This document shows positions 53,214 to 62,078 of a stretch of 64,000 bases of DNA, one piece after another. The notes below the pieces were generated by a model. That model saw nothing but the letters and a program-made list of their open reading frames with translations. It ran no database searches and was not told the DNA's origin. The position numbers and the translations under genes were made by a program. The stretch covers positions 310,001-374,000 of the forward strand of contig NZ_FQYO01000003.1 of NCBI RefSeq assembly GCF_900141735.1, given 5' to 3'. Source of the stretch: Wenxinia saemankumensis (GTDB lineage: Bacteria; Pseudomonadota; Alphaproteobacteria; Rhodobacterales; Rhodobacteraceae). Each line of letters begins with the position of its first letter. The first letter of the stretch is position 1.

Positions 53214-53809
53214 GGATCGCCCGCGCCGTCCGCGATGTCGGCGCGTGCCGGAGCCCCTGCCTCGCGCGGGTTCGCTGCCGTCCGGCCCGGGCCCGGGCGG
53301 ACCCGCCCCGTTCCGGCCGGTGCCGGTATCCGCCCGGCCGGTTACGCGGTCGTGCCGTCCGGCCCGGGCCCGGGCGGACCCGTCCCGTTCCAGCCGGTGC
53401 CGGTATCCGCCCGGCCGGTTCGGTGGGCGTACAGTCCGGCCGCCGGCGCCCCGGTCCCGGTCCCGTCTATCGGCCCCCCGCCGCGTGCCGGGGGCGGCCA
53501 TCGCCGCGGGATCGTGCCCCCGCGCGCCCTGTCACCCCCAGCGCCGTGCCCTCGCGCCTTGCGCCCCCGCCGGCCCCGGCGGCCGGCTACGCCACCGCGC
53601 CGGGAGAGTAGATGGCCGGGAAACGGGGCGATGGACCGGGGTGATGAGCCGGGACCGGGGCTGCCGGGCCGCGCCCGGGGGGCGCTGCACCCCGGCGGCC
53701 GCCGCCCCTTGCCGGCGCGGCCGGGCGCTGACGCTTTCGGTACCAGCCCGGAGGAAACCGGCACTGCCTGCCGGGCGTAGTAGGAGCGACCCTATCAGGA
53801 TGTCCCACC
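53214..53809. other. 596-bp gap with a duplicated 68-bp block
   Basis: No supported gene. It contains a direct repeat (see the repeat entry at 53276–53420). The rest is Pro/Arg/Gly-coding-like GC-rich sequence on every frame, without ribosome sites. The last 60 bases before 53810 contain some A/T and may hold the promoter of the exported-protein gene, but I could not define its boxes. Confidence 0.5.
53276..53420. repeat. Two copies of a 68-bp direct repeat, 77-bp period
   Basis: Copy 1 at 53276–53343 and copy 2 at 53353–53420 differ at only two positions by eye. The unit is very GC-rich and includes GGCCCGGGCCCGGGC. It looks like a recent local duplication. Confidence 0.8.
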
Positions 53810-54214
53810 ATGTCCGCCCTGCAGCGCCACCGCCCCGGTCGGCGCCGGTTCGCCTTCGTCCTCGCGCTGTGCGGGTGGTCCGGCCTCCTGGCAGTCCCGG
53901 CGAAGGCCGAGGATTACCGGCCGGTGACCGAGCGCACCGCGTTCCTCGCGCTGGTCGAGGGCCGCACCCTCTCGATCTGGCTGATGGGGGTGACCATACG
54001 GGTCGGCTCGGACGGCAGCCTGACCGGCGAATCCCGGGGCCGCCCCATGATCGGCCGGTGGACGTGGCAGAACGGCACCTTCTGCCACGAGATCGAGATC
54101 GACGGCATCACCGGACCGGCGGATTGCCAGCGGGTCGAGGCGCTGGGAGAGACGCGGCTGCGCCTGACCTCGCGCGGGGGCAGGGGCGAGAGCACGGTCT
54201 ACCTGGTCCTCTGA
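53810..54214 (+). CDS. Small exported protein of unknown function
   Basis: 134 residues. A signal peptide with basic N-region ends near VPAKAED (about residue 33). The mature part is about 100 residues and holds two cysteines, in TFCHEIEIDG and ADCQRVEA, likely a disulfide; GRTLSIWLMGVTIRV and GRWTWQNGTFCHE look like a beta-barrel (lipocalin-like or DUF995-like) repeat. No specific family confirmed. It lies 13 bases before the DUF1643 gene. Confidence 0.72.
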   Translation: MSALQRHRPGRRRFAFVLALCGWSGLLAVPAKAEDYRPVTERTAFLALVEGRTLSIWLMGVTIRVGSDGSLTGESRGRPMIGRWTWQNGTFCHEIEIDGITGPADCQRVEALGETRLRLTSRGGRGESTVYLVL

Positions 54215-54227
54215 TCGGCCGGGCCGG

Positions 54228-54737
54228 ATGCTGATCCTCCGCCGTCACCGGGGTCCGGGCCATCGCTCGCATGCCGTGTCGTCGTCCTGCGGCGCCTATC
54301 GCTACCTGCTCTCGCGACGGTTCGGGCCGGGGCCCCGCATCCTGTGGGTCATGCTCAACCCCTCCACCGCGGACGAGCGCACCAACGACCGGACCATCGC
54401 GCGCTGCGAGGCGTTCAGCCGCAGATGGGGATACGGTCGGATGGAGATCGCGAACCTCTTCGCCTTCCGCGCGACGCGGCCGGCCGACCTGCGCCGCGCG
54501 GCGGACCCCGTGGGTCCGCAGGCCGACCGGCTGATCGACCGGGCGGCGGTCCGGGCGGACATGGTGATGGCGGGCTGGGGCGTGCATGGCGCGCTGGCGG
54601 GCCGGAACGCGGAGGTCCTGGCGCGATTGCCGCGGGAGAGGCTGCACGCGCTGGCCGTCACCCGCGACGGTCATCCGGGCCATCCCCTGTACATCCGCGG
54701 CGATGCGAGGCCGGTGCCGTTCGGACCGGACATCTGA
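54228..54737 (+). CDS. DUF1643 domain protein
   Basis: 169 residues. The family core is clear: RILWVMLNPSTADERTNDRT, GYGRMEIANLFAFRATRP and RRAADPVGPQADR, features of DUF1643, whose function is unknown. The last 19 codons (GHPLYIRGDARPVPFGPDI) are repeated, in slightly changed form, in the tandem repeats that follow. It is preceded closely by the small exported-protein gene and probably shares a promoter with it. Confidence 0.82.
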   Translation: MLILRRHRGPGHRSHAVSSSCGAYRYLLSRRFGPGPRILWVMLNPSTADERTNDRTIARCEAFSRRWGYGRMEIANLFAFRATRPADLRRAADPVGPQADRLIDRAAVRADMVMAGWGVHGALAGRNAEVLARLPRERLHALAVTRDGHPGHPLYIRGDARPVPFGPDI

Positions 54738-55336
54738 AGGCGGCATGGCGGCGCGGTCGCGCATCGGGGCGCCGCGCCCCGGCGGGGCCTCCGTCCGCTT
54801 GCCCGGCGCCGCCGCCCCGGTCCTGGCGCGGGCGCGGCGCCGTCGGGCGCAGGCGGCGGGGTCCCGGCGGTTGCCCGCAGCGACTACGAGGGCATCCCCT
54901 CTCCATAGGCAACGATGCGAGGCCGGTGCCGTTCGGACCGGACATCTGAAGGCGGCATGGCGGCAAGGTCGCGCATCGGGGCGCCGCGCCCCGGCGGGGC
55001 CTCCGTCCGCTTGCCCGGCGCCGCCGCCCCGGTCCTGGCGCGGGCGTGGCGCCGTCGGGCGCAGGCGGCGGGGTCCCGGCGGTTGCCCGCAGCGATTACG
55101 GGGGCATCCCCTCTCCATAGGCAACGATGCGAGGCCGGTGCCGTTCGGACCGGACATCTGAAGGCGGCATGGCGGCAAGGTCGCGCATCGGGGCGCCGCG
55201 CCCCGGCGGGGCCTCTGGCAGATCTCTCGGCCCCGCCGCCCCGGCCTCGGGCCCGGGCAGGGCGCCCGCTGACTCAGACGGCGAGAGTCCGGCGGTCACC
55301 CCGGACAGTCACGAGGGCAACCCCACTCCATCGGCA
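54701..55336 (+). repeat. Tandem 212-bp repeats carrying the DUF1643 gene tail
   Basis: Units begin at 54701, 54913 and 55125, exactly 212 bp apart. Units 1 and 2 differ at about five positions by eye; unit 3 is near-identical for its first 90 bases and then diverges. A degenerate fourth unit starts near 55337. Each unit opens with the codons for DARPVPFGPDI and a TGA, i.e. the 3' end of the DUF1643 gene, followed by about 175 bp of non-coding sequence. Confidence 0.9.
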
Positions 55337-55470
55337 GTGACGCAGGGCCGGTGCCGTTCGCGCAGGAGCCCGGAGGGCAGATGCCGGCACGGCCGCGCAC
55401 CCGGGGGACCGCTCCCAGGCAGGGCCTTCCGCCGCTTTCCGGTCGCAGCACACCGGGCGGTCCGGGCCCC
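55337..55470. other. Degenerate repeat remnant before the SDHAF4-like gene
   Basis: The rest of the 54738–55470 gap. GGCCGGTGCCGTTCG near 55347 and GCACGG...CGCGCACC later align loosely with the 212-bp unit, so this is a decayed fourth copy. No gene or terminator seen. Confidence 0.5.
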
Positions 55471-55674
55471 TCAGAAGTCGACGGCGATGCCCTTGCGTTC
55501 CCAGTCGCCGTAGCGCACCGGCTCGGGCCCGTCGCGGCCGCCGAGTTCGGGGGGCAGGTCGGGGCCGGTGGCGGCCCTGCGGCGGGCCTCCGCCTCCTGC
55601 AGCGCGCGGCGGGCGGCCTCCGGCAGGTCGGCGCGGGGGGCGGCGGGGCCGGGTGCCCGGGTCTCGTCGGTCAT
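55471..55674 (-). CDS. DUF1674 protein (SDHAF4-like succinate dehydrogenase assembly factor)
   Basis: 67 residues. The C-terminal motif GGRDGPEPVRYGDWERKGIA followed by VDF at the very end is the DUF1674 signature, shared with mitochondrial SDHAF4, which protects flavinylated SdhA before complex II assembly. The N-terminal half is Ala/Arg-rich and probably disordered. The sdh genes are not in this window. It is divergent from rsmB. Confidence 0.9.
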   Translation of the reverse strand: MTDETRAPGPAAPRADLPEAARRALQEAEARRRAATGPDLPPELGGRDGPEPVRYGDWERKGIAVDF

Positions 55675-61669: not shown

Positions 61670-62078
61670 GCCGCGCCGCAATCCGGCCGGCGCCTCCACC
61701 CGGGGGCGATCGCCAGACGCGAGCCGGCGACCCGAGGATCGGTGGCGAAGCGCCGGGGGCGGGGGCCATGCCGCCCACTCCGCCGGTCCATCGGGCGGGG
61801 GTGGGCGACCCGTTCGCCGCGCGGTCGGGTGGTCAGGCTGGGGTGGGTTCAACCCACCCTACGCGCGGCCGTGGGGCTGGGGTGGGTTCAACCCACCCTA
61901 CGGGCGGCCGTGGGGCTGGGGTGGGTGCAACCCACCCTATGCACGGTCGTGGGGCCGGGGTGGGTGCAACCCACCCTACGCCTTGCCTTGTAGGGTGGGT
62001 TGCACCCACCCCGGTCCCGCAAATCCATGTTGTTCCGCGTAGGGTGGGTCGCACCCCCCCACTTGCGCTCCCGCCGCG
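61670..62078. other. Repeat-filled gap between DUF3035 and the zinc-ribbon gene
   Basis: 409 bp with no supported gene. The middle holds the palindromic repeat cluster (see next entry); bases 61670–61840 show nothing recognisable. The two flanking genes converge here, so the hairpins may also serve as transcript ends. Confidence 0.5.
61841..62062. repeat. Cluster of GGGTGGGT...ACCCACCCTAC palindromic repeats
   Basis: Four direct units GGGTGGGTTCAACCCACCCT or GGGTGGGTGCAACCCACCCT begin at 61841, 61880, 61919 and 61958, exactly 39 bp apart, each a hairpin of 7-bp arms. Two inverted units follow at 61990–62012 and 62039–62062 (the second degenerate). GTGGGGC/CGGTCGTGGGGC spacers separate the direct units. 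This resembles extragenic palindromic (REP-like) elements found in many GC-rich genomes. Confidence 0.9.

Follow-up and report, generated by a model that had tools for sequence, protein, structure and literature searches.

A 212-bp tandem array at the 3′ end of a DUF1643 gene in Wenxinia saemankumensis, probably a local duplication homogenised by recombination

The window, a stretch of 64,000 nucleotides of Wenxinia saemankumensis DNA, contains a DUF1643 gene whose last codons recur several times in the DNA behind it, and the question raised by this locus is whether the copies are the residue of a duplication or a device that acts on the protein. A sequence-only reading of the locus had entertained both, i.e., replication slippage on the one hand and the swapping or extension of the C-terminus by recombination on the other.

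Layout of the array

The parent of the repeats is a gene of 169 codons on the plus strand (54228..54737), and its product belongs to Pfam PF07799 (E 1.6e-40; 138.7 bits against a curated cut-off of 22.5). From 54671 to 55470 the DNA is a direct head-to-tail repeat with a period of 212, and the region is bounded on the right by the convergent DUF1674 gene (55471..55674, minus strand; Pfam PF07896, E 1.4e-16), which is syntenic in the genus mate. That a 212-bp tandem repeat copies the tail of the DUF1643 gene was confirmed by TRF, by a repeat search and by self-blastn. The best of the 18 TRF rows in the window, with a score of 1006, spans 54701–55360 as 3.1 copies of period 212 at 90% matches, the repeat search returned a 68-nt core in four copies at 54674, 54886, 55098 and 55311, with identities to the reference copy of 85, 100, 99 and 76%, respectively, and the self-blastn E-values at the three lags (0.0, 6.7e-77 and 1e-17) far exceed chance. 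The sequence-only reading had described three units at exact 212-bp spacing and a decayed fourth; this held for the first two intervals, the third being 213 bp, and unit 1 is the DUF1643 gene's own end, not an extra copy.

At lag 212, 298 of the 303 positions in 54701–55003 are identical, with mismatches just at 54753, 54754, 54835, 54884 and 54889, and 54701–55215 therefore consists of about 2.4 near-identical copies. The edges of this identity are abrupt, the mismatches ending at 54700 and restarting at 55004. On the 3′ side of the near-identical copies, self-blastn finds an older copy of about 72% identity that ends near 55450.

Cores (T) of 91 bp and spacers (S) of 121 bp, all on the plus strand, alternate as T1-S1-T2-S2-T3-S3-T4. 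T1 (54701..54791) contains the last 11 codons and the stop of DUF1643 (54702–54737), followed by 54 bp of downstream DNA, and is identical to T2 and to T3 at 89 of 91 bases; T2 (54913..55003), a copy of the gene tail with its stop, and T3 (55125..55215), whose right edge is the end of recent identity, agree at all 91. The spacers S1 (54792..54912) and S2 (55004..55124) are identical at 118 of 121 positions, and the right-hand part of S1 can be aligned to gene sequence 5′ of 54701, of which it seems to be a decayed copy. The diverged spacer S3 (55216..55336) matches S1 at 53 of 121 positions without gaps, although its right end resembles S1, and the decayed fourth copy T4 (55311..55450), which overlaps the end of S3 as drawn, has no stop and is 72% identical to the gene end over 161 columns and 76% over the 68-nt core. 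Judged by these identities, S3 and T4 are the old parts of the array.

The gene and the coding content of its copies

The translated end of the gene reads GHPLYIRGDARPVPFGPDI before its stop, that of copies 2 and 3 reads GHPLSIGNDARPVPFGPDI before a stop, and that of copy 4 reads GQPHSIGSDAGPVPFAQEPG and runs on with no stop. The statement that each copy keeps the reading frame was borne out across some 15 codons in each of the three copies downstream of the gene, but the stop is kept in just two of the three; since the period of the array is 2 mod 3, the copies sit in frames other than that of the gene. Copies 2 and 3 carry the gene's exact last 11 codons and stop, so an exchange with them would alter nothing; copy 4 differs but is stopless. 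Across 19 aligned DUF1643 proteins an HPLY motif is complete in 17 and never varies in its H, P and L, and its counterparts in copies 2, 3 and 4 are HPLS, HPLS and QPHS, the tyrosine being absent from all three. The copies are therefore no stock of alternative endings. None of the open frames of at least 60 codons within the array passed the codon-position filter as gene-like (the DUF1643 gene itself has a codon-position GC of 0.72/0.58/0.89), and this, with the altered HPLY, makes the copies look like gene-end debris. Differences at the three codon positions number 2/2/3 between gene and copy 2, 3/5/7 between copies 2 and 4, and 5/5/8 between gene and copy 4, counts that are too few to decide on selection for the frame; the copies gave no hint of selection for variety.

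The DUF1643 protein was also followed at the level of structure. Its predicted model is a confident one, with a mean pLDDT of 92.7, and gave no Foldseek match at E 0.001, and a second structure comparison reached a best Z of 5.7. The uracil-DNA glycosylase 5gn2 appeared there with a Z of 5.3 (rmsd 4.0, 139 residues aligned), which is not above unrelated rows. The NPS, WGxHG and HPLY motifs, which presumably resemble those of such enzymes, are taken together with this weak match as a lead to the uracil-DNA glycosylase fold. A phmmer search of the sequence against PDB sequences found no match at E up to 1, and neither PADLOC nor NCBIfam matched DUF1643 or two neighbouring proteins at E 0.001.

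Neighbours, relatives and other arrays

The gene order in the window, with names based on Pfam, is dapB, a small protein without a Pfam match, DUF1643, DUF1674, rsmB, a heparinase-like gene, purH and an lspA-like gene. Pfam scans of 15 window proteins brought up no recombinase, transposase or reverse transcriptase; for one of the 15 (53810-54211) they gave no match. The same order is present in a genome of the same genus, G001, from dapB through the small-protein homologue (36%), DUF1643 (59%), DUF1674, rsmB and the heparinase-like gene to purH. The stop-to-stop gap between DUF1643 and DUF1674 is 31 bp in G001 versus 733 bp in the window, the G001 junction contains no tandem repeat, and the G001 protein ends in ADARPVPYQ, that of the window in FGPDI. 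The short gap without a repeat, together with the non-coding arrays described below in both genomes, supports the origin by duplication or slippage that the sequence-only reading had put forward; against this, the array-free state is known from one genome, G001, the sole other genome of the genus compared, and the array may have been lost there. Between its DUF1643 and small-protein genes G001 has a 267-aa open frame (stretch L059, 5511-6314) that looks by eye like a membrane protein; in the window these two genes are 13 bp apart.

A search with the DUF1643 protein gave a match in 32 of 61 genomes, the own genome included; beyond the 29 loci of relatives fetched from it, two further matches yielded no locus. 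Altogether 48 other DUF1643 loci were compared, from 29 relatives, 6 named genomes and 13 viral contigs, one of them (L109) matching over 24 residues only. Tail copies like those of the window were found at none of the 48, in a count that excluded matches starting beyond the stop and in which five loci had less than 1,400 bp of downstream DNA; 44 had no match at all and four had one tail match each of 18–21 bp with E 0.01, versus E 2e-48 to 3e-16 for the copies in the window. In four plus-strand relatives (L012, L019, L020 and L031), downstream self-matches lie more than 200 bp past the stop and do not copy the DUF1643 tail. Among the 29 other loci of the relatives, DUF1643 lies next to DUF1674 within the 1.5-kb flank in the genus mate only. 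Three of the six named genomes (L055, L056 and L057) have rsmB, DUF1674 and dapB together, with DUF1643 at 2.1-2.3 kb beyond the dapB start, and the other three have no such neighbour within 6 kb. When the array DNA was searched against 394 family genomes drawn from a larger group, with two candidates scored per genome, 95 gave a match, the own genome included; elsewhere the matches are weak (best 53.6 bits versus 1517 for the array itself), hit different parts of the array and are mostly G+C-rich.

Tandem repeats were then compared across 464 kb of the own genome, composed of 20 stretches of 20 kb and the window, the latter having been chosen for the finding. TRF reported 104 rows in this sample, some of them overlapping, of which 18 have a period of at least 30 and 6 a period of at least 60. 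The DUF1643 array is the highest-scoring of them, which puts it at the large end for the genome. Further arrays outside gene-like frames are found in the window at 53276-53441 and 61836-61981, and elsewhere in stretches L074 (19196-19503) and L068 (5872-6107); an array in L073 lies inside a long frame. In 334 kb of the genus mate, TRF gave 72 rows, 5 with a period of at least 60, and of its arrays the one in L086 starts 16 bp past a gene-like frame and that in L089 shares part of its length with a doubtful frame. In neither genome, therefore, is it rare for non-coding stretches to be tandemly duplicated. Among the eight arrays examined, only the DUF1643 array has an edge among the final codons of a gene-like frame. 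The array at 53276-53441 is a second tandem repeat one gene away from the DUF1643 array, non-coding and 3′ of dapB (77 bp x 2.2, 91% matches), and the one at 61836-61981, between the lspA-like gene and a zinc-ribbon gene, is built of 3.7 copies of 39 bp with a palindrome, GGGTGCAACCC, inside.

The 212-bp unit also has weak matches in four other places of the own genome, 32-118 bp long with E 4.4e-6 to 3.4e-4. In a 400-kb sample, at E up to 1e-3, the unit had three matches and the reversed unit none; 51 of 60 random window segments had none and 9 had one. This excess speaks against pure chance and is left unexplained by a purely local duplication. The matches involve different parts of the unit, that in L007 lying in a long gene-like frame and those in L005, L006 and L008 outside such frames or at their edges, and they are probably shared G+C-rich stretches, not an interspersed repeat family. 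The array in L074 is a non-coding one of 142 bp x 2.2 and starts with a 42-bp G+C-rich stretch that resembles the DUF1643 unit at 83%, in opposite orientation; a separate comparison gave seven short rows of E 2e-4 to 7e-4 for it.

Origin, alternatives and known systems

The array is very probably a local tandem duplication of the gene's 3′ end that was later re-expanded and homogenised by recombination, the gene tail included. In an ancestor of the species, the 3′ end of DUF1643 would have been duplicated together with the short gap before DUF1674, as a segment of about 212 bp, by slippage or illegitimate recombination, and the extra copy, not being a gene, would have drifted, leaving S3 and T4 as its remains. 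Later pairing of 91-bp core blocks, one of them within the gene's 3′ end, may then have led to unequal crossover and/or gene conversion, as the edges of identity suggest, and this would have produced the present T-S-T-S-T array and, to go by the edges at 54700/54701 and 55003/55004, made the gene's 11 terminal codons and its stop identical to the copies. The sharpness of the first edge, with diverged DNA to its left and near-identical DNA to its right, indicates that the gene tail has recombined with the copies, in one direction or the other, and toward uniformity, not variety. The end of S3 shares with S1 changes relative to the gene, in GAGGGCA and CTCCAT stretches, so the decay of the spacer began before the recent expansion.

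How much of the unit was derived from the gene can be estimated from the gap. Subtracting the three units (212+212+213 = 637 bp) from 733 bp leaves 96 bp, and on the assumption that each of the three extra units is a tandem duplication, the gene must have contributed no less than about 116 bp to a 212-bp unit. Just upstream of the core, the comparison of the gene with unit 2 gave an anchored extension score of 47, and 1 of 393 random places in the window scored as high, which supports a gene-derived part of the unit. Farther upstream, the spacer resembles the gene no more than chance would allow (37 of 392 and 109 of 386 random places scored at least as high, as did 274 of 1457 and 584 of 1953 in a separate test), and the same holds for the older spacer (51 of 392; 102 of 1466). 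The possibility that the spacer is wholly gene-derived was consequently set aside, being supported near the core only, and the chance-level stretches count against the duplication account where the extent of the first duplication is concerned.

The recombination at the gene tail admits a stronger reading, in which the array is a live recombination partner and conversion replaced the gene's 11 final codons and its stop (FGPDI versus the YQ of the genus mate), so that short non-coding copies could rewrite and lengthen a protein's C-terminus; this is considered unlikely. Conversion from decayed copies into the gene, if true, would be a simple route for changing the tail of a protein; otherwise the array would be no more than a curiosity of this locus that might serve in strain typing. 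That the array is instead a functional non-coding element, a tandem RNA or bidirectional terminator kept in multiple copies, is quite improbable. Its position between convergent genes, its G+C-rich inverted repeats and the recurrence of short array stretches in the genome, one of them in another non-coding array, would fit such an element, but its fold energies are ordinary for its composition (z -0.85 and -0.34), Rfam at E up to 1 gave no match in the array and one sub-threshold match (E 0.43) outside it, a simple scan limited to sigma-70 and T-run types found no promoter- or terminator-like site, and the genus mate lives without the array. A tandem small RNA cluster, for which a known RNA family or an unusually stable fold was sought, is disfavoured by the same Rfam result and z-scores. 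There is very little chance that the copy number was distorted by the assembly of repeats, for although the genome is in 17 contigs and 212-bp units would be near the length of short reads, fixed differences distinguish the units, the oldest copy has no more than about 72-76% identity and the contig extends more than 360 kb to either side. Least credible is a tail-swapping device in which downstream copies, as silent cassettes, donate alternative C-termini by recombination, for although the identity edge inside the gene and its ending, which differs from that of the genus mate, would favour it, copies 2 and 3 have the gene's exact tail, copy 4 lacks a stop, HPLY is changed in all three, a recombinase or reverse transcriptase is absent from the 15 window proteins scanned, and the 48 other loci lack such copies apart from the four matches of 18–21 bp.

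The array is thus probably an ordinary tandem duplication, in which homogenisation nevertheless extended into coding sequence; the protein probably keeps a single ending, and the array is probably neutral. It offers a clean example of a gene 3′ end that was tandemly duplicated, decays and would then have been homogenised with its own debris.

Among known systems, the nearest are minisatellites. PMC2884548 names them, along with slippage or RecA-dependent recombination, as giving rise to small variable segments in the genomes of bacteria, and uses as criteria tandem direct copies of a unit of at least 20 bp with at least two copies of 90% identity. By these criteria the array, with its 298 of 303 identical positions at lag 212, is a minisatellite, known here from one genome of the species. 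Like an intergenic minisatellite or VNTR, it consists of head-to-tail direct copies beside genes, with recent units more than 90% alike; unlike one, its first unit holds the last 11 codons and the stop of a gene. Its 212-bp unit is long for the bacterial minisatellite class. Diversity-generating retroelements and shufflons act on the C-terminal end of a gene, but the repeats here are direct and head-to-tail, not inverted units, and the 15 scanned window proteins include no reverse transcriptase or invertase. In silent-cassette antigenic variation, e.g., pilS/pilE, partial copies of a gene's end lie beside the gene and recombine with it, and in this the array is alike, since its copies adjoin the DUF1643 gene and have recombined with it. 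Such a system would have differing coding versions in the copies and tail copies beside related genes; here two of the three copies show no difference in the exchanged coding part and the third, which differs, has no stop, a conserved residue adjoining that part is lost in all of them, and tail copies like these are lacking at the 48 loci.
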